Shown here: in pieces, positions 27,854 through 46,539 of the stretch | Layout: every line of letters starts with the position of its first letter | How positions within the stretch are numbered: the stretch's first letter is position 1 | Source of the DNA: Streptosporangium carneum | GTDB lineage: Bacteria; Actinomycetota; Actinomycetes; Streptosporangiales; Streptosporangiaceae | Length of the DNA: 64,000 nucleotides | Assembly (NCBI RefSeq): GCF_027922005.1 | Contig: NZ_BSEV01000004.1 | Location: 62,001-126,000 of the forward strand | Direction of reading: 5' to 3' | Notes under the pieces: model-generated | Told to the model about the DNA's origin: nothing | The model's input: only the letters and a program-made list of their open reading frames with translations | The model's database searches: none | Translations under genes and position numbers: made by a program

Positions 27854-28498
27854 ATGAGCCGCCTGCTGCACCTGGACGCCAGCGCCCGCAAGGAGTCCTT
27901 CTCCCGCACCCTGTCGGGGATCTACGCCACGTCGTGGCGTGCCGCCAACCCCGGCGGCGAGTACTCCTACCGGGACCTGGCGGCCGACCCCGTCCCGCAC
28001 ATCGGCCAGGCGTGGACCGAGCTGTGCGACCATGTCCTGGCCAACGGGATCACCGACGTCGGCCGCTACCGCGAGGCGGTGAGCACTCCGGAGCAGGCCG
28101 AGGCCTGGGCGGTCGTGGAGCCGCTGCTCGAGGAACTGGTGGCCGCCGACGTCGTGCTGATCGGCACGCCGATGTACAACTACTCCGTCCCGTCGGCGCT
28201 GAAGGCCTGGATCGACCAGGTGACCTTCCCCAGGATGAGGCTGACCGGACGGAGGTTCGTCGTCGCGGGAGCCAGGGGCGGGGCGTACGGTCCCGGCACG
28301 CCCAGGGAGCCCTTCGACCACGAGGAACGCTACCTGCGCGACTTCTTCCTCGGGCACTTCGCCGTCGAGGACGTCACGTTCGTCCACGCCGAGCTGACCA
28401 ACGCGCTGGTCGACCCCGCGCTCGCCGGCCTGCGGACCGAGCACGAGGAGTCGCACGCGGCCGCGCGGGAGCTCGCGGGGAAGCTGGCCGTCCGATGA
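27854..28498 (+). CDS. azoR: FMN-dependent NADH-azoreductase
   Basis: A 214-residue flavodoxin-fold reductase. LHLDASARKESFSRTLSG is the FMN phosphate loop and GTPMYNYSVPSALKAWIDQV the diagnostic AzoR motif; GGAYGPGTPREPFDHEERYL follows. The enzyme reduces azo dyes and quinones with NADH and probably serves in quinone or electrophile detoxification. ATG 27854 has GGAG upstream. It overlaps the exporter gene by ATGA (28495-28498). Twin operators control the pair. Confidence 0.9.
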   Translation: MSRLLHLDASARKESFSRTLSGIYATSWRAANPGGEYSYRDLAADPVPHIGQAWTELCDHVLANGITDVGRYREAVSTPEQAEAWAVVEPLLEELVAADVVLIGTPMYNYSVPSALKAWIDQVTFPRMRLTGRRFVVAGARGGAYGPGTPREPFDHEERYLRDFFLGHFAVEDVTFVHAELTNALVDPALAGLRTEHEESHAAARELAGKLAVR

Positions 28499-28812
28499 GC
28501 TGGCTCCTGCTCGTCGCGGCGGGGCTGGTGGAGATCGCCTGGTCGCAGAGCATCAAGCCGACCGAGGGGTTCACCCGGCCCGTGCCCACGCTGATCTGCT
28601 TCGCCCTGGGGGCCCTCGCGGTGTGGCTGCTGTCGAAGGCCATGCAGCAGGGACTTCCCGTCGGCACCGCCTACGCCGTCTTCACGGGCATCGGCGCGGT
28701 CGGAGCCGTCATTCTCGGAGTGGTGCTGCACGGAGACCCGATCGGGGCCGGTCGCGTCGCGGCGCTCGCGCTGATCGTCGGCGGGGTCGTACTGGCCCGG
28801 GCCCTCGTGTGA
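28495..28812 (+). CDS. gdx: SMR-family exporter, SugE/Gdx type
   Basis: A 105-residue, four-helix small multidrug resistance protein. The membrane-embedded glutamate is in LLLVAAGLVEIAWSQSIK (Glu13). The pattern W..SIK.TEGFTRPVPT and LPVGTAYAVFTGIGAVGAV matches the SugE/Gdx branch, which exports guanidinium against protons, rather than EmrE. No guanidine riboswitch precedes it; instead it is translationally coupled to an azoreductase under a protein operator, so substituted guanidines or cationic dyes may be the substrates here. Confidence 0.87.
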   Translation: MSWLLLVAAGLVEIAWSQSIKPTEGFTRPVPTLICFALGALAVWLLSKAMQQGLPVGTAYAVFTGIGAVGAVILGVVLHGDPIGAGRVAALALIVGGVVLARALV

Positions 28813-28883
28813 CCGGCGGGACCGGACGCGCGGCGGCGCCCGCCGTACGGGCCCGGGGAGCGGGGGCGCCCGGGAGAGCGGAA

Positions 28884-28916
28884 AGGCGCCGCGGACGGGG
28901 AACGTCCGCGGCGCCT
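28884..28916. terminator. Strong hairpin between gdx and the sigma gene
   Basis: Perfect 14-bp arms (AGGCGCCGCGGACG at 28884-28897, complement at 28903-28916) and loop GGGAA. It serves the convergent exporter and sigma-factor genes. Confidence 0.75.
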
Positions 28917-28927
28917 CGCGCGTGCGA

Positions 28928-30289
28928 TCAGCTGGCCCAGTCGAGCAGCGGCCGTGTGTTGCTGGGGTGGCGCAGCTTGGACAGGGACTCCTTCTCGAGC
29001 TGGCGGATGCGCTCGCGGGTCAGGCCCAGGTGCTTACCGATCTCGTCGAGAGTGTGGGGCTTGCCGTCGACGAGGCCGAAGCGCAGAGCCATGATCTTGG
29101 CCTCCCTGGGGGAGAGGTTGCCCAGCACCCCGCGCAGCTGCTCGCCGAGCAGCTGACGGTCCACCACCTCGGAGGCCTCGGGCGAGTCGACGTCCTCGAT
29201 CAGGTCGCCGATGGTGGTCTCGCCGTCGTCGCCGATGGTGGCGTTGAGGCTGATCGGCTGACGGCTGGTGCGCAGCAGCTCCTCGATCTGGTCGGGAGTC
29301 CTGTCCAGCTCGACCGCCAGCTCCTCGGGGGTGGGCTCGCGGCCCAGGCGCTGGTGCATGTCACGCTCGACGCGCGAGAGCTTGGAGAGCATCTCCAGCA
29401 CGTGGACCGGCAGGCGGATGGTGCGCGCGGAGTCGGCGAAACCGCGCTGGATGGCCTGGCGGATCCACCACATGGCGTAGGTGGAGAACTTGTAGCCCTT
29501 GGTGTAGTCGAACTTCTCCACGGCGCGGATCAGGCCGAGGTTGCCCTCCTGGACCACGTCCAGCAGCGCCATGCCGCGGTCGGTGTACTTCTTCGCGACG
29601 GAGACGACCAGGCGGAGGTTGGCCTCCAGCATGTGGTCCTTGGCGCGGCGGCCGTCCTCGGCTATCCACTCCAGATCGTCGCGCATGGCGGCCGACAGGC
29701 CCGGCTCGGCCTCGAGCTTGGACTCGGCGTACAGGCCCGCCTCGATCCGCTTGGCGAGCTCGACCTCCTGGGCCGCGGTGAGCAGGGTGCGGCGGCCGAT
29801 CGACTTGAGATAGGTGTGGACGGAGTCGCCCATGACCGAGGACTGGTCGTCCAGGTCCATCGTGGGCTCGGCCTCGAGCTCCGCCTCGTCGGCGGCGCTC
29901 CACTCCTCCTCGTCGGCGTCGTGGGCGAGGTCGGTCAGGTCCCGCCTGGGCTCCGCGGGCGCCTGGGCGGCGGGCTCCGCCTTCGCGGCCGAGGTCCTCT
30001 TCGCGGGGGCGGCCTTGGCCTTGCGGGTCGTGCTCTTGCGCGCCGTCGGCTTGGCCGCGGCCTTCTTGGTCGCGGCGGCGAGCGTGGGCTCGTCCTCGGC
30101 GGCCAGGCTGACGCCCGCCTCGGTGAGCTCCCGCAGGATCGATCGGCCCTCGGTGGGGCTGACCCCCGCCTCGGCGAAGGCGTGACGCAGCTCCGCGAGG
30201 GAAAGGTGACCCTGGACTCGCCCTCGGTCAAGGAGCTGCTCGAGGGTCGTCGGGGCCTCCGATGAGGTCGCCACGGCGGTTTGGGGCAT
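28928..30289 (-). CDS. Primary-type sigma-70 factor (HrdB/SigA-like)
   Basis: A 453-residue sigma factor. A sigma-1.1-like helix block (about 15-65) and a Lys/Ala-rich linker (73-115) precede region 1.2 ([20 protein letters not shown]), region 2 ([20 protein letters not shown], then [18 protein letters not shown]), region 3 and region 4 ([20 protein letters not shown]). Promoter-reading region 2.4 has RQAIQR where E. coli and HrdB have RQAITR, so the residue equivalent to T440 is Gln. The C-terminus ends RPLLDWAS and differs from the HrdB ending RDYLD. It is thus either the main sigma factor or a close group 2 paralogue with changed -12 preference. ATG 30289 is the natural start. Confidence 0.88.
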
Positions 30290-34865: not shown

Positions 34866-35348
34866 ATGCTATCTGACCAGACTCTGACCGGCTATGAGTC
34901 GATAGCCACGTACGGCACTTACCCGGAAGCCCAGCGAGCCGTCGACTACCTGTCGGACCAGCGGTTCCCCGTCGAGCACGCGATGATCGTCGGGATGGAC
35001 CTCCGGATGGTGGAGAAGGTGCTCGGCCGGCTGACCTACCTGCGCGCCGCCGGGATGGGGGCGGCGACCGGTGCCTGGCTCGGACTGCTGATCGGCCTGT
35101 TCTTCGCGATCTTCACCCCTGGCAGGTTCCCGTGGACCCTGGTCCTGTGGAGCCTGCTCTGGGGCGCGGTGGCGGGAGCCATCTTCGGGCTCATCGCCCA
35201 CGCGTTCACCGGGGGCAAGCGGGACTACCTCTCCTCAAGCGCCATCGTCGCCAACCGCTACGAACTCCGCGTCACGACACCCCAGGCCGCCGAGGCGCGC
35301 CGGCTGCTCGAGACCGGCATACCTCAACACCACGTAGCCGGGACATGA
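34866..35348 (+). CDS. General-stress-protein-17M-like membrane protein
   Basis: A 160-residue protein. The N-terminal YESIATYGTYPEAQRAVDYL matches the general stress protein 17M-like domain. Then come two hydrophobic segments, GAWLGLLIGLFFAIFTPG and LVLWSLLWGAVAGAIFGLI, and a C-terminal RYELRVTTPQAAEARRLL of the same alpha/beta half-domain. ATG 34866 follows GGGGAG. Proteins of this type are stress-linked in actinobacteria but unstudied. It precedes the chaperone operon on the same strand by 230 bases. Confidence 0.8.
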   Translation: MLSDQTLTGYESIATYGTYPEAQRAVDYLSDQRFPVEHAMIVGMDLRMVEKVLGRLTYLRAAGMGAATGAWLGLLIGLFFAIFTPGRFPWTLVLWSLLWGAVAGAIFGLIAHAFTGGKRDYLSSSAIVANRYELRVTTPQAAEARRLLETGIPQHHVAGT

Positions 35349-35405
35349 CACCAGGGGGCCTCGGGGCGTCGTCCGCCCCCGGGCCCGTCGTCCGGCACAG
35401 CGCCT

Positions 35406-35578: not shown

Positions 35579-37516
35579 ATGGCTAAAGCAGTCGGGATCG
35601 ACCTGGGCACCACCAACTCGGTGATCGCCACGATGGAGGGCGACAAGCCCACCGTGATCCCCAACGCCGAAGGATCGCGGACGACGCCCTCGGTCGTGGC
35701 CTTCACCGACGACGGCGAGCGCCTGGTGGGACAGCTGGCCCGGCGCCAGGCGATCCTCAACCCCAAGGGCACGATCTACTCGGCCAAGCGCTTCATCGGA
35801 CGCCGTTACGACGAGGTCACCAGCGAGATGAACGCCGTGTCGTTCGACGTGGTGCCGGGGCCCGACGGAGCGGTCCGCTTCCAGGTGCGCGGCAAGCAGT
35901 ACGCGCCGGAGGAGGTCGCCGCCCTGGTGCTGCGCAAGCTGGTCGACGACGCCTCCAAGTTCCTCGGGGAGAAGGTCACCGAGGCGGTCATCACCGTGCC
36001 CGCCTACTTCAACGACTCCCAGCGGCAGGCGACCAAGGACGCGGGGAAGATCGCGGGTCTCGAGGTGCTGCGGATCATCAACGAGCCGACCGCCGCGGCC
36101 CTCGCCTACGGTCTGGACCGCAAGGAGAACGAGACCGTGCTCGTCTTCGACCTGGGCGGCGGGACGTTCGACGTGAGCATCCTGAGCATCGGCGACGGCG
36201 TCGTCGAGGTGCGCTCGACCGCGGGCGACACCCATCTCGGCGGCGACGACTTCGACCGCCGCATCGTCGACTACCTCGCCGACGAGTTCCAGCGCGACAA
36301 CGGCGTCGACCTGCGCGCCGACCCGCAGGCCCTGCAACGCCTCTTCGAGGCGGCGGAGAAGGCCAAGGTCGAGCTGTCCTCGGTCAGCCAGACGCAGGTC
36401 AACCTGCCCTTCATCACGGCCGACGCCTCGGGGCCCAAGCACCTGAACACCACGCTGCGGCGGGCGACGTTCGAGGAGATCACCGCCGACCTGCTGGAAC
36501 GGTGCAGAGGACCGGTCGAGCAGGCGATGTCCGACGCGCGGCTCACCGCCGACGACATCGACGAGGTGATCCTGGTCGGCGGCTCGACCAGGATGCCCGC
36601 CGTGCAGAACCTGGTGCGCCGGATGACCGGCGGCAAGGACCCGAACATGACGGTCAACCCCGACGAGGTCGTGGCGCTGGGCGCGGCGGTGCAGGCGGCC
36701 GTCATCAAGGGTGAGCTGAAGGACGTCGTGCTGCTCGACGTGACGCCGCTGTCGCTGGGCATCGAGACGCTCGGCGGGATCATGACGAAGGTCATCGACC
36801 GCAACACGACGATTCCGGCCCGTCGCGGCGAGGTGTTCAGCACCGCGGAGGACAACCAGAGCGCCGTCGACGTCGTGGTGCTCCAGGGGGAGCGCGAGCG
36901 CGCCGCGGACAACCGGGCGCTCGGCCGGTTCCGGCTGGAGAACATCAGGCCCGCGCCGCGTGGCGTGCCGCAGATCGACGTCACCTTCGACGTCGACGCC
37001 AACGGCATCCTGAACGTCTCGGCCAAGGACAAGGACACCGGGGCCGAGCAGCGCATCACCATCAGCGAGAGCTCGAACCTCGACCAGGGCGAGGTCGAGC
37101 GGATGGTCGCCGACGCCGAGCGGCACCGGGAGGAGGACCTGCGGCTGCGGCAGGTGGTGGACGCGAGGAACGAGCTCGACAGCATCGCCTACCGGGTGGA
37201 ACGGCGCCTGGCCGAGCTGGGGGAGGCGGTGCCCGTCCACGAGAAGGCCCGGGCCGAGATGCTCGTGTCCGACGCCCGGGAGGCGATCAAACAGCAGGAC
37301 GCGCCGATCGACCGGCTGCGGTCCCTGACCGCCGAGTTGGAGCAGGTCTACCAGAGCATCGGCGCGTCTTCGGGCGGCGCAGGAGGGGCAGGAGGCGCCG
37401 CCGGCGGTCCCGGCGGTCCCGGCGGCCCTGGCGGTCCCGGCGGCGCGGGTGGCGCGGGTGGCGCCGGCGGGCAGGACGACGACGTCATCGACGCGGAGTT
37501 CACGACCGATGAGTGA
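35579..37516 (+). CDS. dnaK: Chaperone DnaK (Hsp70)
   Basis: A 645-residue Hsp70. The nucleotide-binding domain starts [20 protein letters not shown] and has [14 protein letters not shown] and [14 protein letters not shown]. The linker [19 protein letters not shown] and the substrate domain with the helical lid follow. A Gly-rich tail (about residues 605-632) ends [13 protein letters not shown], a usual C-terminus. ATG 35579 has GGGAGG five bases upstream. The first gene of the chaperone-redox operon, it overlaps grpE by eight bases. The genome probably has another dnaK, since this operon is atypical, but that is not visible here. Confidence 0.96.
37402..37472. repeat. 9-bp tandem repeat encoding the DnaK Gly-rich tail
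   Basis: About eight copies of GGCGGTCCC-like units (later GGCGCGGGT/GGCGCCGGC), coding GGP then GGA triplets. Such slippage-prone tracts can vary in length between strains without breaking the frame. Confidence 0.8.
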
Positions 37517-38099
37517 GTCGTCCAGGCGGCACGACGCCGAGGCGCGGCAGGCCGCAGGGGAGGCCGCGGGGGAGGCCTCGGTGCGGGAGACGGACGCCGG
37601 GAGCACGGTCGACCCGCGGACGGGCACGCCGGAAGGCGCCGCCGGTTCCCAGGAGCGGATCGCCGAACTCCAGGAGCGGGCCGCCGAGCTGGAGGACCGG
37701 TGGCGGCGCGCCCTGGCTGATCTCGACAACCTACGCAAACGAGTCAGCCGCGACGCCGCGCGGGTGCGGGCGGAGGAACGGGCGAGGGCCGCCGCCGAGT
37801 GGCTGCCCGTCCTGGACAACCTGGAACGCGCCCTCGACCACGCGGACACCGACCCGGCCTCCGTCGTCGAGGGGTTGCGGGCGATCCGCGACCAGGCGCT
37901 GGACGTGCTGGCCCGTCTCGGCTTCCCGCGCCGCGACGACACCGGCACGAGGTTCGACCCCGCCAGGCACGAGGCGGTCGGCGTGCTCGCCCAGGAGGGC
38001 ACGCCGGACGGAACGGTCCTGCACGTGGTACAGCCCGCGTACGGGGAGGGCGAACAGCAGCTGCGGCCCGCCCTGGTCGTCGTCTCCAAGGCGGAATGA
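37509..38099 (+). CDS. grpE: Nucleotide exchange factor GrpE
   Basis: A 196-residue GrpE. A disordered acidic N-terminus (1-50) leads to the long dimerising helix ([20 protein letters not shown], then [20 protein letters not shown]) and to the beta-domain ([20 protein letters not shown] and VLHVVQPAY). It speeds ADP release from DnaK. ATG 37509 lies within the end of dnaK and the stop overlaps the dnaJ start by ATGA, so the proteins are made in step. Confidence 0.93.
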
Positions 38100-39067
38100 T
38101 GCCACCGAAACGGAACTTCTACGAGATCCTCGGCCTGCCCAGGAACGCGAGCCAGGAGGACATCCAGCGCGCCTACCGCAAGCTCGCGCGGGCCAACCAC
38201 CCCGACGTCAACAAGGACCCGGCGGCCGAGGACCGCTTCAAGGACATCTCCGAGGCCTACAGCGTCCTGTCCGACCCCAAGACCCGCCGCCGCTACGACG
38301 CCTTCGGGCCCGACTTCCGTCAGGTGCCGGAGGACGTGGACCCCGAGACCTGGGCGCGTGCCGGGGCCGGGCGCGCGGGGGCCGGACGGGCCGGGGCGGG
38401 CAGGGGCCAGGGCGGGTGGACCGGCCAGGCGGGACCGTCGGGCTTCGAGGGCGTCGACATCGACGACCTCCTGGAAGGGCTCTTCTCCGGCAGAGCGGGC
38501 CGGACCGGCGCGGGAGGCAGGGCGGGCCCGGGCTGGGGACCGATCCCCGGCGCCGACCAGGAGGCCGAGATCGAGCTGGGCGTCGAGGACGCCTACCGGG
38601 GAGGACGCAAGGCGATCACCGTGGGCGGCCGCAGGATCGAGGTCGACATCCCCGCCGGGGTGACGGACGGCCAGCGGATCCGGCTGGCCGGACAGGGCGG
38701 CAGGGGCGGCGACGGGGCTCCCGCGGGAGACCTCTACCTGATCGTCAGGATCGCGCGCCATCCCCGCTACCGGGTCGAAGGACGCGACATCCACCTCCGG
38801 CTCCCCGTCACACCCTGGGAGGGGGCGCTCGGCGCGACCGTCGCCGTCGAGACGCCGGGTGGCGAGGCCAAGGTCAAGGTGCCGCCCGGCACCTCGAGCG
38901 GGCGGAGGCTGCGGCTGCGAGGCCGGGGGATGCCGAACCCGAGGGGCCAGCCGGGCGACCTGTTCGCCGAAATAAGGATCATGGTCCCGCCCCGGCTCGG
39001 CGACGAGGAGCGGCGACTGTTCGAGCAGCTCGCGGCGGTCTCGACGTTCGATCCAAGGAGGCAGTGA
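38096..39067 (+). CDS. DnaJ-family co-chaperone of CbpA type (no zinc finger)
   Basis: A 323-residue class B J-protein. The J domain is residues 5-70 with the HPD motif in [11 protein letters not shown] Gly/Ala/Arg linker with AGAGR repeats (about 91-140) follows, and two beta-barrel C-terminal domains ([20 protein letters not shown] and the later [16 protein letters not shown] region [17 protein letters not shown]). The CxxCxGxG zinc repeats of classical DnaJ are absent, so it corresponds to CbpA. The following gene encodes a CbpM-like partner, which fits. Start ATGATG at 38096 overlaps the grpE stop. Confidence 0.92.
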
Positions 39068-39387
39068 TGACCTACTCCCTGGCCAGGCCGGAACGCCTGG
39101 ACATCGAGTCGTTCGCCAGGGCGACCGGGACGCATCCCGAGCTGGTGCGGCGCCTGGTCGTCCTCGGCGTGCTCGACGCGCAGCGCGACGCGGCGGGACG
39201 CATGTGGTTCTCCGCCTCCCAACTGCTCGCCATGGCCAGGATCCAGCGCCTGCGCGCGGGGTTCGCCCTCAACTACGCCGCACTCGGCCTCGTGGTCGAC
39301 CTGCTCGACCGCATCGCCGAGCTGGAGACGGCCGTGCGCGACCTTTCCCCGATCACAGGAGGACCGAAGTGGACGTCAACCAGCTGA
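39067..39387 (+). CDS. cbpM: Chaperone modulator CbpM-like (MerR-fold)
   Basis: A 106-residue MerR-like helical protein: [40 protein letters not shown] and a C-terminal coiled coil [20 protein letters not shown]. In E. coli CbpM binds the J domain of CbpA and blocks its use of DnaK. Its place directly after the CbpA-type gene supports the same role; it is not HspR, which has a longer MerR form and a typical DNA-binding wing. AGGAGG precedes ATG 39067. The gene overlaps the dnaJ stop by one base and the clpB start by 19 bases. Confidence 0.85.
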
Positions 39388-41975
39388 CCCAGAAGTCGCA
39401 GGAGGCGCTGCACGACGCGCAGACCAAGGCTCTTCGCTTCGGCCACACCGAGGTCGACGGGGAGCACCTGTTGCTGGCACTGCTCGACCAGCCGGAGGGG
39501 CTCATACCGCGGCTGCTCCTGCGCGCCTCCGTCGACACCGACCGGCTCAGGACCGACCTGGAGGCCGTGCTGAACCGGATGCCCAGGGTCAGCGGCCCCG
39601 GCGTCGACCCGGGCCAGGTACGGGTGACCCGGCGCCTGTCGCGGCTGCTGGAGACCGCCAAGAGGGAGGCCGACCGGCTCAAGGACGAGTATGTCTCGGT
39701 CGAGCACCTGCTCGTCGCCCTTCTGGAGGAGGGCAGCGGGACCGCCGCGGGACGGCTGCTGCACCAGCAGGGGCTGACCAAGGACGGTTTCCTGCAGGCG
39801 CTCACCGCCATCCGGGGCAACCAGCGGGTCACCTCGGCGATGCCCGAGGTCGCCTACGAGGCGCTGGCCAAGTACGGGCGGGACCTGGTGGCGGCCGCCG
39901 CCTCCGGCAAGCTCGACCCGGTCATCGGACGCGACGCCGACATCCGTCGCGTCATCCAGATCCTGTCCCGCAAGACCAAGAACAACCCGGTGCTGGTCGG
40001 CGACCCCGGAGTCGGCAAGACCGCCATCGTGGAGGGTCTCGCCCAGCGGATCAGCAACGGCGACGTCCCCGAGGGGCTCAAGGACAAGGTGATCTTCAGT
40101 CTCGACATGGGCGCGCTCGTCGCGGGGGCGAAGTACCGGGGCGAGTTCGAGGAACGCCTCAAGGCGGTGCTCACCGAGGTCGTGGCCGCGGAGGGGCGGA
40201 TCCTGCTGTTCGTCGACGAGCTGCACACGGTCGTCGGGGCGGGCGCGGCCGAGGGCGCCATGGACGCGGGAAACATGCTCAAGCCCATGCTGGCCCGCGG
40301 CGAGCTGCACATGATCGGGGCGACGACCCTGGAGGAGTACCGCAAGCACATCGAGAAGGACGCCGCCCTGGAACGTCGTTTCCAGCCCGTCATGATCGAC
40401 GAGCCTTCCGTCGAGGACGCCGTCTCGATCCTGCGCGGCCTGCGCGAGCGGCTGGAGGTCTTCCACGGTGTGACGATCCAGGACGCGGCGCTGGTCGCCG
40501 CCGTGGTGCTGAGCCACCGCTACATCTCCGACCGCTTCCTGCCGGACAAGGCGATCGACCTGGTCGACGAGGCCTGCGCGATGCTCAGGACCGAGATCGA
40601 CTCGATGCCCGCCGAGCTCGACGAGCTCACCCGCAGGGTGATGCGCCTGGAGATCGAGGAGGCCGCGCTGGCCAAGGAGGAGGACCAGGCGAGCCGGGCC
40701 CGCCTTGAGGAACTGCGCAAGGAGCTCGTCGACCTGCGTGCCGAGGCCGACGCCATGCGCGCCCAGTGGGAGGCGGAACGGCAGGCCCTTCGCGGAGTCC
40801 AGACGCTGCGCGAGGAGATGGAGCGCGTGCGTGCGGAAGCCGAGCGGGCCGAGCGCGACTACGACCTCAACCGGGCCGCCGAGCTGCGGCACGGCAGGCT
40901 GCCCGAGCTGGAACGGCGGCTGCGCTCCGAGGAGGAGCGCCTGCGCAGCAAGCAGGGAATCGGGCGGCTGCTGCGCGAGGTCGTGACCGAGGACGAGATC
41001 GCGATGATCGTCTCCAGGTGGACGGGCATCCCGGTGAGCCGTCTGCAGGAGGGGGAGCGCGAGAAGCTCCTGCACCTGGACGAGGTCCTGCACGAGCGGG
41101 TGATCGGCCAGGACGAGGCCGTGCAGTCGGTGTCCGACGCGATCATCCGGGCCCGCTCGGGAATCAAGGACCCGCGTCGTCCGATCGGGTCGTTCATCTT
41201 CCTCGGGCCGACGGGCGTCGGCAAGACCGAGCTGGCCAAGGCCCTGGCGGCGGCGTTGTTCGACACCGAGGACAACATGGTTCGCATCGACATGAGCGAG
41301 TACCAGGAGCGCCACAGCGTCAGCCGTCTGGTCGGGGCCCCTCCCGGCTACGTGGGATACGACGAGGGCGGCCAGCTCACCGAGGCCGTGCGGCGCAAGC
41401 CGTACTCGGTCGTGCTCTTCGACGAGATCGAGAAGGCGCACCCCGACGTGTTCAACACGCTGCTGCAGGTCCTCGACGACGGGCGGCTGACCGACGCGCA
41501 GGGCAGGACCGTCGACTTCCGCAACACCATTCTGATCATGACCTCCAACATCGGCTCGGTCTACCTGCTGGAGGGCGTCACCTCGAGCGGGGAGATCAAG
41601 CAGGACACCCAGGAGCGGGTCCTGGCCGAGCTGCGCTCGCACTTCCGGCCCGAGTTCCTCAACCGCGTCGACGACATCGTGATCTTCAAGCCGCTCACCG
41701 AGGAGGAGATCGAACGCATCGTCGAGCTGATGTTCGGCGAACTGCGGGTCCGTCTCGAGGAGCGGGGGATAGGGCTGGAGGTCTCGCCGCAGGCGCGCAG
41801 GCACATCGCCGAGCGCGGGTACGACCCGGTGTACGGCGCGCGCCCGCTGCGCCGGTTCATCGCCAGGGAGGTCGAGACCCGCATCGGACGCGCGCTGCTC
41901 ACCGGTGACGCGCGCGAGGGCGCCGTGGTCCGGGTCGACCTGGTGGAAGGAGAGCTCGTCGTCACCTACGAGTAG
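39369..41975 (+). CDS. clpB: ATP-dependent disaggregase ClpB
   Basis: An 868-residue Hsp100. The Clp N-domain repeats ([20 protein letters not shown]) are followed by AAA-1 with Walker [14 protein letters not shown] near residue 212 and [18 protein letters not shown]. The coiled-coil M domain (about 395-530) is full length, so this is ClpB and not ClpA/C. AAA-2 has [13 protein letters not shown] near 613 and [15 protein letters not shown]. It pulls proteins out of aggregates with DnaK/DnaJ/GrpE, all encoded just upstream. GTG 39369 has AGGAGG nine bases upstream inside cbpM. Confidence 0.95.
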
Positions 41976-42035
41976 CTTCTCGACGCCGACCTGTGAGACG
42001 CCGACCCGTGAGACAGGGGGAAGGAGACAACGGCC

Positions 42036-42491
42036 ATGTCGACGAACATCGTGCGGTGCGGTGACTGCGGGAAGAGGAACCGGGTGCCCGCCGCCGCGGC
42101 GGGCGTGCCGCGCTGCGGGGAGTGCGGCGGCCCGCTGCCGTGGATCGTCGAGGCCGGTGACGGCGACTTCGCCGACGTGGTCGAGGCCTCGGCCGTTCCC
42201 GCGATCGTGGACTTCTGGGCGTCGTGGTGCGGGCCGTGCCGGATGGTCGGCCCGGCGCTCGACCGGATCGCCGAGGACCTCGCGGGACAGGTGAAGCTCG
42301 TCAAGGTCGACGTGGACAGGGCGCCCGGGCTCTCCGAGCGTTTCGCGATCAGGAACATCCCCTACCTGATGGTGGTGCGCGGCGGGGACGTCGTGGCCGA
42401 GCGGGCGGGCGCCGCCCCCGCCCCCGAGTTGCGCGCCTGGGTCGACCAGGCGCGCAACTCGGGGGCGACGGCGGGACGGGAGAGTGGCTGA
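42036..42491 (+). CDS. trxC: Thioredoxin with N-terminal zinc ribbon (Trx2/TrxC type)
   Basis: A 151-residue thioredoxin. Residues 8-35 carry two CxxC knuckles (RCGDCGKRN and RCGECGG) as in E. coli thioredoxin 2, whose zinc site is redox-sensitive. The thioredoxin fold follows with FWASWCGPCRMVGPALDRIA (active WCGPC near residues 63-67) and cis-proline RNIPYLMVV. It should reduce disulfides in the cytosol. It lies 60 bases after clpB and one base before the reductase-like gene, pointing to a redox arm of the chaperone operon. Confidence 0.93.
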   Translation: MSTNIVRCGDCGKRNRVPAAAAGVPRCGECGGPLPWIVEAGDGDFADVVEASAVPAIVDFWASWCGPCRMVGPALDRIAEDLAGQVKLVKVDVDRAPGLSERFAIRNIPYLMVVRGGDVVAERAGAAPAPELRAWVDQARNSGATAGRESG

Positions 42492-42492
42492 C

Positions 42493-44160
42493 ATGGACGC
42501 GTTCGCGGAGACGCCCGACCACCAAGGGGCGTTTCCCCGGCTGGAGGAGGCGCAGACCGCCAGGCTCGCCCTCCACGGAACCCGGCGCCCGGCCAGGCCC
42601 GGCGACGTGTTGATCAGGGAGGGAAAGGAGGTTCCCGACTTCTTCGTCGTCCTGGCGGGCAAGGTCGCCGTCATCGAGGGCGAGCGGGTGGCGCGGGTTC
42701 ACGGCCCCGGACGCCTCCTCGGCGAGATCGGGATGCTCACCGGCCAGAAGGCCTCCGTGACCTCGGTCGTCTGCGAGGCGGGCGAGGTCCTCGCGATCCC
42801 CGTCGACGCCCTGCGGCACGTCGTCGCCCGTGATCCCGACCTCGGCGACCTGATCCTGCGGGCCCTGGTGATCCGCCGTTCGCCGCTGATCGGCGGCGGG
42901 GCAGGCCTGAGGATCATCGGTTCCCGCTATTCGCCGGAGACCCGGCGGCTGCGCGAGTTCGCCGCCCGCAACCGGCTGCCGCACCGGTGGGTCGACCTGG
43001 AGGAGGACGAGGAGGCCGAGGCGCTGGTCCGCACCCTCGGCATCACGCCGCAGGAGACGCCGATCGTGATCCTGGGCGGCACCCGGGTCCTGCGCCATCC
43101 CACCGACGTCGAGCTGGCCCGCGCCGTCGGGCTGTCGGCGCCGTCCGCGCGCGGAGACCTGTTCGACCTCGTCGTCGTGGGAGCGGGGCCCGCGGGTCTC
43201 GCCGCCGCGGTGTACGGGGCGTCCGAGGGGCTGCGCACGCTGGTGCTCGACGCGGTCGCGACCGGCGGTCAGGCGGGTGCCTCCTCCCGCGTCGAGAACC
43301 ACCTCGGCTTTCCCGCGGGGATCTCCGGCGGGCAGCTCGCCGAGCGGGCCGTCATCCAGGCCAGGAGGTTCGGGGCCCGCATCGGCGTGCCCGCGGAGGC
43401 GACCTCGCTCGAACGGCAGGACGGGTGCTACTCCGTCGGGCTTGGCGACGAGCCGCCGGTCCAGGGCCGCACGGTCGTCATCGCCACCGGAGCGCGCTAC
43501 CGCAGGCTCGACGTGCCCCGTCTCGAGGACTTCGAGGGCGACGGCGTCCACTACGCCGCGACCCTGACGGAAGCCGGCCTCTGCGCCGGCGAGCAGGTCG
43601 TGGTCGTGGGCGGGGGGAACTCGGCGGGGCAGGCGGCGATCTTCCTTTCCGGGCACGCCTCGTCGGTGCGCCTGCTGGTCCGCGGCGACGACCTCGAGGA
43701 GAACATGTCGCGCTACCTCGTCGACCGGATCGCGCGCGCCCCCAGGGTCGAGGTGGCGCTCCGCACGGAGGTCCGCGAGCTGGTGGGAAACGGCGGGCTG
43801 GAGGCCGTCGTGGCCGTGGACACGCGCACCGGGCTGCGGCAGCGCGTGGACACCCGGGCCATGTTCGTCCTCATCGGGGCGCAACCGTGCACGGCCTGGC
43901 TCGCCTCCGCGCTCACCGTCGACGACAGGGGGTTCGTCGTGACCGGGTTCGACGGCGGCCTGCCGCTGGAGACCAGCCTGCCGGGCGTCTTCGCGGTGGG
44001 CGACGTCAGGAGCCAGTCGGTCAAACGGGTCGCCTCCGCGGTGGGCGAGGGGGCGATGGCCGTCCGGCTGGTGTACGAGCACTTCGCCCGTGAGACGCCC
44101 CGGAGCCCCCAGTCCCCCGATCTCGTGGGGGCGGCCGGGGCCGCCCGCCCGTACCGCTAG
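42493..44160 (+). CDS. Cyclic-nucleotide-binding / glutaredoxin-like / thioredoxin-reductase-like fusion
   Basis: A 555-residue fusion. Residues about 15-135 form a Crp-type cyclic-nucleotide-binding barrel (DFFVVLAGKVAVIEGE, GEIGMLTGQKASVTSV). Residues about 143-218 form a thioredoxin-fold module (LRIIGSRYSPETRRLREFAA, TPIVILGG). From 225 on it is a TrxR-like flavoprotein with FAD loop VVVGAGPAGLAAAVYGASEG, NAD loop VVVVGGGNSAGQAAIFLSG and closing GVFAVGDVRSQSVKRVASAV. Key residues are missing: the Arg of the cNMP phosphate cassette (KAS in place of ERS), the CxxC of the glutaredoxin module (SRYS), and the CxxC of TrxR (YAATLTEA in place of YCATCDG). ATG 42493 is preferred over GTG 42484, which would sit on top of GGGAG. 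It ends at a hairpin and closes the operon. Confidence 0.88.
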   Translation: MDAFAETPDHQGAFPRLEEAQTARLALHGTRRPARPGDVLIREGKEVPDFFVVLAGKVAVIEGERVARVHGPGRLLGEIGMLTGQKASVTSVVCEAGEVLAIPVDALRHVVARDPDLGDLILRALVIRRSPLIGGGAGLRIIGSRYSPETRRLREFAARNRLPHRWVDLEEDEEAEALVRTLGITPQETPIVILGGTRVLRHPTDVELARAVGLSAPSARGDLFDLVVVGAGPAGLAAAVYGASEGLRTLVLDAVATGGQAGASSRVENHLGFPAGISGGQLAERAVIQARRFGARIGVPAEATSLERQDGCYSVGLGDEPPVQGRTVVIATGARYRRLDVPRLEDFEGDGVHYAATLTEAGLCAGEQVVVVGGGNSAGQAAIFLSGHASSVRLLVRGDDLEENMSRYLVDRIARAPRVEVALRTEVRELVGNGGLEAVVAVDTRTGLRQRVDTRAMFVLIGAQPCTAWLASALTVDDRGFVVTGFDGGLPLETSLPGVFAVGDVRSQSVKRVASAVGEGAMAVRLVYEHFARETPRSPQSPDLVGAAGAARPYR

Positions 44161-44268: not shown

Positions 44269-46539
44269 TCAGCGGCCCGGCTGCCCCTCCCGCTCCACGG
44301 AGAGCCTGGCCAGCTCGACACGCGAGTGGATGCCCAGCTTGCGGAAGACCTGGCGCAGGTGGAAGGCGACGGTGTGCTCGCTGATGAACATCTGCTCGGC
44401 GGCCTGACGGTTGGTCAGCCCCCCGGCGACCAGGTCGCAGACGGTGTGCTCGGTTCCGGTCAGGCTGTCCCAGCCGGACACCGGGTGGTCGGTCCTGACC
44501 CAGTGGCGGCGGCGCTTGCCGAGTCCCCGCAGCCTGCCGCGCACCCGCGCCGCGTCACGGGCCGCCTTCATCGCCTCGTAGCGGGACAGCGCGTCGTAGA
44601 GGGTCTCGACGGCCAGTTCGCGGCAGTCGTCGTCGGCGCTGAGCAGCACACCCAGGTCCTCGGCGGCCGAGGCCCTGGCCCAGGGGTCGGTGTGCTCGGC
44701 CACGGCGCGGCCCAGCGCCTGCCTGTCGCGCTCGCGCAGCCCCCGGGCGTGCGCGGCGGACACCGCGGGGTTGGGCAGGCCGGGGTTGCGCCAGGCGATG
44801 CCCTCCGCGGCGTCGACCACGGCGTCGGCCCTGCGCTCGTCGTCCACCGCCATGGCCACCCGCACCAGCCACGCCGCGGCGGTCGGCTCGCTGGTGAGCG
44901 CCCCGGTGTGCCGGGGGAGCGCGTCGTAGACCCGGCCCAGCGAGCTCATCCCGCCCGCGGCCCCGTCGCGGGCCTCGCTGATCCGGCCCGCCGCCAGCTC
45001 CGAACGCAGCCGCGCGTACGGCGGCGCGTCGCGAGCCCCCCGGGCCAGCTCGCTCTCCAGGCATCTGATCGCCCGGGGGAGGTCTCCGGCCCGCAGCGAG
45101 GCGGTGCCCAGCACCGACAGCGCGGAGGACGCCAGGGCGGGGACCCCCAGGGTCTCGGCGGCGGTCAGGCCGCTCTCCGCCTGCTCGATCGCGCTGCCGA
45201 ACCGGCCCGCGGCCAGTTCGAGGCGGGCGCGCAGGACGGGGATCTCCGCGGCCCACGCCGGGTGGCCGACCGCCTCCGCCGTGGCGCTCGCCGTCACCGC
45301 CTCCGCCTCGTCGAGGAGCCAGAGGTCGGCGAGCATGGTCGCCAGTACGGCCCGCGGCTGCGGATAGTGCCCGTTGCCCGGCCGTTCCGCGGCCTCACGG
45401 GCGAGCTCGAGCCCGCGGGTGAGCCTGCCCTCGTCCCAGGCGAGCAGGGCGAGCAGCACGAGCGTCTCGGCCGTCGCGCTCTGCGCCACCTGACGCCCGC
45501 GTGCGAGCCTGGGCGGCGCGGCCTGCTCGACCTGGTCGCGCAACGCCCGCCGTACTGGGGCGGGGACCGTCTCGACGACGGAGCGCCACAGCAGCTCGTG
45601 CCGGAACGACAGCTCGTCCGGAGTGGCGACGAGCACGCCCGCCGCCAGCGCCTCCTCGAGGGCGGGCAGCAGGGCGGCGGGGGTCTCGCCCAGCATCTCC
45701 GCGGCGTACGCGGGGGAGAAGGAGCGGCCGAGCACGGCGGTGGCCTCGAGCAGGTACCTGGTCCTGGTGCTCACCTCGTCCAGGCGGCGCCGTACCGCGG
45801 TGTGCACGCGGCGGGGCAGCGCGGAGCCGGTGAGCCGGGCGACGCCCGCCTCGACGCTGACGGCGTTTTCCTCGCGCAGCCCGGTGAGCAGTTCGAGGAG
45901 CAGGAACGGGTTGCCTCCGGCCTGCGCCGCCAGCATCGTCAGCTCCTCGTCGGGGACGGCTCCCAGCGTGTCCGCGGCCACTTCGGCCACGGCCGCCTCG
46001 CTGAGGGGGCGCAGGTCGATCCTCGTGGCCCCCTCGCGGTGCAGCAGGTCGAACAGCCGGGCGTCGTCGGTGCCGTCGGCGGTGCGGCGGGCCAGCAGCC
46101 ACGCCAGGGGACGGTCCGCCAGCTGGGACGGCAGTGTCCGCAGCGCCATGAGCGTGGCGGGATCGGCCCACTGGAGATCGTCCAGGGTCACCAGCAGCGG
46201 TCCCCTGTCGGCGCGCCGCTCCAGCGCGCTCCGCACCTGCCCGGCCAGCCATATCAGCAGGCCCGGCCCGTCGGGCACGGCGCTTCTGGTGACGGCCATG
46301 GCGGACGGAGACTCCTCGAGCGCCGACAGCAGCGGCCCCAGCGGCATCAGCCGCCCGAGCACGTCGGCCCGGCCCGCCGCGACCGCCGTTCCCCTGGCGG
46401 ACGCGACGGTCGCGGCCTCGGCGAGCATGAGGCTCTTGCCCGCCCCGGGGTCGCCCTCGACGAGGGTCACGTTTCCTGTCGTGCCCGCGGCCCGCAGCTG
46501 TCGCAGAACCGTCGTCCACTCATCGGCGCGGCCGCGCAT
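44269..46539 (-). CDS. LAL-type LuxR-family regulator (AAA ATPase)
   Basis: A 756-residue large ATP-binding LuxR regulator. Residues 1-30 give MRGRADEWTTVLRQLRA and Walker A VEGDPGAGKSLMLAEA; Walker B is LLVTLDDLQWADPATL. A long helical/TPR-like middle follows. The C-terminal LuxR HTH (LTGTEHTVCDLVAGGLTNRQ, then EHTVAFHLRQVFRKLGIHSR) lies at about 685-745. LALs such as MalT, PikD or RapH activate sugar use or antibiotic genes. The product of this gene may act on the divergent LanC-like gene, with which it shares a 351-base control region. Confidence 0.9.
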   Translation of the reverse strand: MRGRADEWTTVLRQLRAAGTTGNVTLVEGDPGAGKSLMLAEAATVASARGTAVAAGRADVLGRLMPLGPLLSALEESPSAMAVTRSAVPDGPGLLIWLAGQVRSALERRADRGPLLVTLDDLQWADPATLMALRTLPSQLADRPLAWLLARRTADGTDDARLFDLLHREGATRIDLRPLSEAAVAEVAADTLGAVPDEELTMLAAQAGGNPFLLLELLTGLREENAVSVEAGVARLTGSALPRRVHTAVRRRLDEVSTRTRYLLEATAVLGRSFSPAYAAEMLGETPAALLPALEEALAAGVLVATPDELSFRHELLWRSVVETVPAPVRRALRDQVEQAAPPRLARGRQVAQSATAETLVLLALLAWDEGRLTRGLELAREAAERPGNGHYPQPRAVLATMLADLWLLDEAEAVTASATAEAVGHPAWAAEIPVLRARLELAAGRFGSAIEQAESGLTAAETLGVPALASSALSVLGTASLRAGDLPRAIRCLESELARGARDAPPYARLRSELAAGRISEARDGAAGGMSSLGRVYDALPRHTGALTSEPTAAAWLVRVAMAVDDERRADAVVDAAEGIAWRNPGLPNPAVSAAHARGLRERDRQALGRAVAEHTDPWARASAAEDLGVLLSADDDCRELAVETLYDALSRYEAMKAARDAARVRGRLRGLGKRRRHWVRTDHPVSGWDSLTGTEHTVCDLVAGGLTNRQAAEQMFISEHTVAFHLRQVFRKLGIHSRVELARLSVEREGQPGR

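Follow-up and report, generated by a model that had tools for sequence, protein, structure and literature searches.

Does an operon that carries a second set of DnaK-ClpB chaperone genes, a thioredoxin (Trx) gene, and a thioredoxin reductase (TrxR)-like gene couple protein disaggregation to disulfide reduction? The question is raised by contig NZ_BSEV01000004.1 of Streptosporangium carneum, of which a 64,000-nt stretch was analysed (the window; coordinates without a locus or genome label are positions in it). Sequence, open reading frames, and profile searches place seven plus-strand genes at 35579-44160: dnaK, grpE, cbpA, a cbpM-like gene, clpB, trx, and a gene for a fusion of CNB, glutaredoxin (Grx)-fold, and TrxR-like domains. 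Successive genes overlap by 8, 4, 1, and 19 bases and are then separated by gaps of 60 and 1. The initial annotation had the genes, order, strand, spacing, and domains right and interpreted the last two genes as a built-in redox pair. That interpretation is probably wrong: we consider it probable that this is an accessory, horizontally exchanged proteostasis operon in which Trx is an add-on and the fusion is a flavoprotein of some other chemistry, not a TrxR.

The fusion (42493-44160, plus strand; PF00027 and PF07992) begins 1 base after trx, or overlaps it by 8 bases if an alternative in-frame GTG start at 42484 is used. It keeps FAD and NADP Rossmann domains and motifs and the TrxR fold, and the Grx fold is likewise present in the predicted folds. 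In the Grx-fold domain (42904-43128) the residues S-P-E-T replace the glutaredoxin CxxC. Alignment with the canonical TrxR encoded elsewhere in the same genome puts the segment AATLTEAGLC (43555-43584) at the place of the TrxR CATC; the canonical enzyme has CATC where the fusion has AAT. No CxxC occurs anywhere in the 120 homologues listed, and no catalytic Grx cysteine is present in the residues shown for columns 147-150 of these homologues or in A3. Other residues at the former active site are kept, Glu360 in all 120 and Cys364 in 119. The score against TIGR01292 (TrxR) is 224.7 bits, under the cut-off of 343.45, while the CNB profile PF00027 is matched at 56.8 bits (cut-off 27.5). The phosphate-binding cassette of CNB domains normally has an arginine; in the fusion family position 87 is A, S, V, E, or G in 118/120 homologues, mostly A, and at position 86 R occurs in 6 homologues and K in 14. 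The C-terminal part has structure matches to TrxR, with AhpF as the top Foldseek row, and in one structure comparison the listed rows covered only residues 219-536. AhpF also has a Trx-fold N-terminal part. The fusion thus resembles low-molecular-weight TrxR and AhpF in fold and in FAD and NADP motifs, but has no CxxC and has an extra CNB domain. The nearest named homologues are from Streptosporangium (72-80% identical), and the family comprises at least 7,997 proteins at or under 1e-30, possibly including TrxR proper. Databases often name the homologues thioredoxin reductase; however, with no CxxC in the TrxR-like domain and a Grx-like domain that is cysteine-less too, the fusion is unlikely to be one. 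For Trx to reduce disulfides, a different enzyme would have to recharge it, for example the canonical TrxR encoded in this genome. Since the FAD and NADPH motifs are kept and CxxC is missing from both domains, the fusion most likely takes hydride or electrons from NADPH and transfers them via FAD to an acceptor other than a disulfide.

Linkage found in this genome only would have spoken against the initial annotation, but clpB-trx-fusion linkage recurs across families and on plasmids. The sample was 246 genomes drawn from the class, including that of S. carneum; only a few top candidates were scored in each genome, and counts of genomes for ClpB2 (the second type of ClpB), fusion, and Trx are lower bounds. 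ClpB2 at 73% identity or more is present in at least 27/246 genomes. These relatives are 73-84% identical, with one case at 66%; other ClpB proteins are at 61% and below, and the housekeeping ClpB of S. carneum is 58% identical to ClpB2. The spread is patchy (2/21 listed genomes of genus g29 and 2/13 of genus g15). Full-length fusions at 55% or more number at least 22 copies in 21/246 genomes, a count that leaves out three partial matches at that identity: G142 (residues 112-539), G072:C25 (121-488), and G085:C74 (4-304). The partial fusion of G142 adjoins a divergent dnaK-grpE-cbpA-cbpM group. The fusion lies within 10 kb of clpB2 in 19 of the 22 copies, 12 of them within 1 kb, so the linkage exceeds chance. 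The other three are a paralogue in S. carneum, 40 kb off, and two copies whose contigs carry no ClpB2; one of these contigs stops about 0.4 kb past the gene and the other is 4.2 kb long.

The zinc-ribbon Trx (42036-42491, plus strand, 60 bases after clpB; TIGR01068, 98.4 bits, cut-off 96.8) has two CxxC in the ribbon and CGPC at 42228-42239, a cysteine pattern identical in all 11 operon-type relatives read. Trx at 52% or more occurs in at least 14 genomes; in 13 the match lies 38-79 bases from the clpB2 match, and in the fourteenth it stands beside a fusion on a contig without clpB2. Of the 27 ClpB2 genomes found, both redox genes are linked in 11, the fusion alone in 8, Trx alone in 2, and neither in 6. 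The redox genes are optional: each can occur without the other, and the chaperones without either. A scan of named-genome contigs (query A1) gave no operon-type orthologue among the 80 loci listed, all of which were 50% identical or less.

Relatives also occur on plasmids. There are 19 plasmid records, from Rhodococcus, Nocardia, Streptomyces, Gordonia, and Arthrobacter, with ClpB2 at 75% or more, and 14 with the fusion at 56% or more, in two of them in two pieces; several records stem from derivatives of a single Rhodococcus strain and do not count as independent cases. Eleven plasmid stretches were read, six picked for the fusion (14 kb flanks) and five without a fusion among the listed matches (9 kb). 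The genes of the six are usually arranged as yflT-dnaK-grpE-cbpA-cbpM-clpB-trx-UBP zinc finger-fusion, followed by DUF1931 in four, and the UBP-type zinc finger is present in five. A general stress protein gene directly precedes dnaK in 9/11 stretches, lies elsewhere in one, and is unannotated in one; yflT also precedes dnaK at several chromosomal loci. In the window a YflT-domain general stress protein gene (34866-35348, plus strand; PF11181, 83.9 bits, cut-off 26.2) opens the conserved cluster; the initial annotation, correct for its seven genes, left out this one as well as the missing cysteines of the fusion. What follows clpB varies: an M48 protease and a PDZ trypsin-like protease on the Nocardia farcinica HB204 plasmid, IS elements in Gordonia, a trypsin-like gene in Arthrobacter, and, on two Rhodococcus plasmids (L165:11649-12601 and L166:11649-12598), remnants comprising trx residues 1-76 and the fusion from residue 299. 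Trypsin-like peptidases occur in 7/11 stretches, Hsp20 in 3/11, and FtsH, PsiE, and M48 in 1/11 each. Transposase or Tn7-type genes are present in eight (L159-L162, L164-L167) and a site-specific integrase in L163. In a ClpB tree of 26 rows, the N. farcinica plasmids are split between clades: HB204 ClpB falls in the clade of the window (8 rows, 100/99) whereas SZ1509 ClpB, which shares 98.3% identity with R. pyridinivorans and 97.6% with Gordonia, groups in a Rhodococcus-type clade (10 rows, 100/99). The different clades of plasmid ClpB from one species therefore indicate that relatives of the operon have been horizontally transferred; this evidence concerns relatives on plasmids, not the window copy.

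The chaperone genes, all on the plus strand, are dnaK (second copy, 35579-37516; PRK00290, 959.8 bits, cut-off 648), grpE (37509-38099; PF01025, 120.5 bits, cut-off 25.8), the gene of a CbpA-type J-protein (38096-39067; J and DnaJ_C domains above Pfam cut-offs, no zinc-finger domain matched in the profile search), and clpB2 (39369-41975; TIGR03346, 1336.1 bits, cut-off 1232.1). All four products are full length and above curated cut-offs, and are parts of a DnaK-ClpB bichaperone set. Together they would make up a complete Hsp70-Hsp100 disaggregase that probably supplements the housekeeping set under stress; another dnaK-grpE-dnaJ-clpB group, with a full-length dnaK, lies on contig C1 of the same genome. 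The gene at 39067-39387 (plus strand) is above the cut-off for MerR_2 (PF13591, 48.3 bits, cut-off 29), and relatives on plasmids carry the annotation chaperone modulator CbpM. However, its product reaches 29.0 bits against 138 for the CbpM equivalog PRK10265, so only the name CbpM-like is used where the initial annotation had cbpM. It does not reach the HspR model either (25.3 against 105 bits), in agreement with the earlier view that HspR is absent. E. coli cbpA-cbpM encodes a zinc-finger-less J-protein followed by a MerR-like modulator, and E. coli CbpM restrains CbpA by J-domain binding. The same J-protein type and order with a MerR-like gene are seen here, although the score is below the CbpM equivalog cut-off and the gene sits in a dnaK/clpB operon; by analogy, the CbpM-like protein probably restrains CbpA through its J-domain. 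Trx, where present, may break disulfide bonds in aggregated or extracted proteins and be recharged by housekeeping TrxR.

The classical actinobacterial operon is dnaK-grpE-dnaJ-hspR, with the gene of the MerR-type HspR at the cbpM-like place. The second operon has the same chaperones as this operon (the copy on C1) and, at the position of hspR, also a gene of MerR type, but it has a CbpA-type J-protein and ClpB2, and no HAIR-like sites near dnaK. HAIR-like sites (≤3 mismatches, ≤1.6 kb before dnaK) gave one match, at -1500, among 31 second-operon upstream regions, one of which (L039) precedes a dnaK fragment only. The same scan picked up sites at -93 and -42 before the S. carneum housekeeping dnaK operon, and to this extent bears out the absence of a HAIR site near the second dnaK given in the initial annotation. 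CIRCE had no match upstream of the second operon, and SigR- and SigB-like sites before it were not above shuffles. In L076 an exact GGAAT-N18-GTT, which we take to be a SigR/SigH-like consensus, stands 116 bases before the housekeeping dnaK, beside HAIR-like sites, and none stands before the second operon. Between 34700 and 44400 neither a sigma-70-like promoter nor a plus-strand terminator-like site was found; the latter result agrees with the single unit that the initial annotation supposed. As RNA, the clpB-trx gap folds more weakly than 194/200 shuffles, and thus no hairpin terminator is indicated there. The repeat search gave a G+C-rich inverted repeat without a T-run on the 3' side of yflT (35356-35386, plus strand), which is possibly the end of the yflT transcript.

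The neighbours of the fusion family elsewhere suggest a partner other than Trx. A UBP-type zinc-finger gene (PF02148) lies within 1.5 kb on the same strand at 31/76 loci with a Grx-containing TrxR-like protein and at none of the 50 named loci whose protein is TrxR-only; several of the 31 are close relatives and are not independent. Zinc-finger loci are L041-L048, L050, L051, L056-L059, L079, L082, L087, L097, L157-L159, L161, and L162. Thirteen of the 31, including Winogradskyella and Dyadobacter, show no match to the chaperone operon within the stretch, and the zinc finger stands beside CxxC-less TrxR-like proteins in several phyla. In the Streptomyces plasmid L160, L049, L052-L055, and L060 no zinc finger adjoins the fusion. 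The sole UBP-type zinc-finger gene found in the S. carneum genome (G000:C19:10248-10433, L177) is unlinked to the fusions on C4 and C32. Among 80 named loci, a Trx match stands beside 14/50 TrxR-only genes and 0/30 members of the Grx-containing fusion family; outside the operon, the fusion family was not seen beside Trx.

How these observations are to be read depends mainly on the fusion. If Trx and the fusion were a functional redox pair, with the fusion regenerating Trx and so coupling disaggregation to disulfide reduction, their genes would be expected together, and they are adjacent here; full-length Trx at 55% or more is found in the same 14 plasmid records as the fusion (3/34 Trx plasmid matches were partial, and 4 further records lay outside those listed), 13 of the 19 ClpB2 records are among these 14, and the TrxR-like C-terminal structure and the database names point the same way. 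We nevertheless judge this improbable, given the lack of CxxC in all listed homologues, the TIGR01292 score, the canonical TrxR elsewhere, and the absence of Trx beside the family at other named loci. Moreover, Trx is missing next to clpB for 8 of the 19 linked fusions, and 2 Trx genes lack a linked fusion, which does not fit a functional couple. Of the coupling proposed in the initial annotation, the recurrent linkage stands, whereas the fusion as Trx reductase is not supported, and the redox genes are separable. A rather unlikely possibility is that the fusion and the zinc-finger protein act as a redox sensor or regulator, in which the degenerate CNB and Grx domains and the NADPH/FAD core read the redox state and gate the chaperones without turnover. 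Loss of the CxxC cysteines from both domains, a CNB arginine not seen at position 87, and conserved FAD and NADP motifs agree with this, but the conservation of Glu360 and Cys364 at the former active site speaks for a catalytic role.

The remaining rival, an ordinary paralogous heat-shock operon with the redox genes as bystanders in a stress-gene neighbourhood, is doubtful, though less so than a sensor. Both redox genes are unlinked or absent in 6/27 ClpB2 genomes and missing from 6/19 plasmid records, and clpB can be followed instead by different additional genes, for example those of proteases; against this, the Trx match keeps its 38-79-base distance from clpB2 in all genomes but the one whose contig has no clpB2. 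The accessory operon with an optional Trx and a non-TrxR flavoprotein is preferred over these. Several results weigh against it: the shared plasmid records just given, the 45/76 Grx-containing loci without a zinc finger within 1.5 kb, the absence of a zinc finger adjoining the fusion in the window or its family member G087, and the lack of an accepted shared upstream promoter motif. Candidate 9-mers and 10-mers near dnaK were above a crude block shuffle and were rejected, with few supporting rows, some of them related. More tentatively, actinobacteria may have a distinct mobile DnaK-ClpB rescue island in which the fusion and the UBP zinc finger are a new CxxC-less NADPH-flavin module, found in several phyla, redox-sensing or feeding electrons to a non-thiol target, and recruited beside the disaggregase.

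The closest analogue is the proteobacterial tLST/LHR/TLPQC. Genes described for tLST include sHsp20, ClpG/ClpK, FtsH, YfdX, HdeD, thioredoxin, KefB, PsiE, and proteases of M48 and DegP type, and IS5, IS3, and Tn7 stand in the flanks (PMC8290217, PMC8129007, PMC5347186). Both systems have a disaggregase and a thioredoxin on plasmids or islands, with IS3, IS5, and Tn7-type genes; for the actinobacterial operon, this setting is seen in relatives on plasmids. The tLST genes sHsp20, FtsH, PsiE, M48, and DegP (PMC8290217, PMC5347186) have counterparts near the actinobacterial operon on single plasmids, among them HtrA-like proteases. The core differs, DnaK-GrpE-CbpA-ClpB here and dna-hsp20-ClpG in tLST as far as described, and the actinobacterial operon has YflT, CbpM, and the CNB/TrxR-like fusion, often with the zinc finger and DUF1931. 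ClpB of the window scores 790.4 bits against ClpK and 766.3 against ClpG, both below the cut-off of 1900. The operon looks like a tLST counterpart but is not a tLST, because the ClpG core is missing and ClpB is above its own cut-off. No description of the operon or the fusion was found in the open-licence PMC literature, judged by title and the start of the abstract; the earlier claim of an undescribed system stands to that extent, but the tLST parallel has been described. If the proposed readings are right, soil actinobacteria trade complete protein-rescue kits on plasmids, as enterobacteria do with tLST, but with a different disaggregase. The best-matching members of a large family often named thioredoxin reductase could not use known TrxR chemistry, and the family would gain a testable partner, the zinc finger, and a setting, disaggregation.

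Some further observations concern relatives and neighbouring genes. The second fusion gene of S. carneum (G000:C4:144150-145841, L037:9877-12137), 40 kb from the first, lies 3' of a decayed trx-like frame without CxxC, so that copy persists without an intact adjacent Trx; it lies 5' of a DUF1931 gene, and upstream of it a phage-integrase profile is matched weakly (15.2 bits, below cut-off). DUF1931 genes directly 3' of the fusion recur (L040:10034-10522, L044:8581-9105, L157:15679-16119). Among sampled chromosomal neighbours (10 proteins), L052 and L045 have ADH, aldehyde dehydrogenase, and cyclase-like genes, and L050 has Hsp20. The dehydrogenase and cyclase-like genes (L052:7879-14508, L045:4244-9335) lie between or beside the fusion and dnaK in one genome group, and one L045 frame also matches acetate kinase. 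In Paraburkholderia (L097:10001-14023) a Grx/TrxR-like gene and zinc finger occur with a Clp ATPase match on the other strand (44% over residues 24-851). Plasmid pDK2 of Rhodococcus DK17 has extra dnaK and clpB fragments (L157:5365-5581, 28262-29653), the latter near a Dyp peroxidase-encapsulin pair. PADLOC matches in the region were generic AAA and CNB matches and were set aside. In the window, a large LuxR-type AAA_16 regulator gene (44269-46539) is convergent with the operon.

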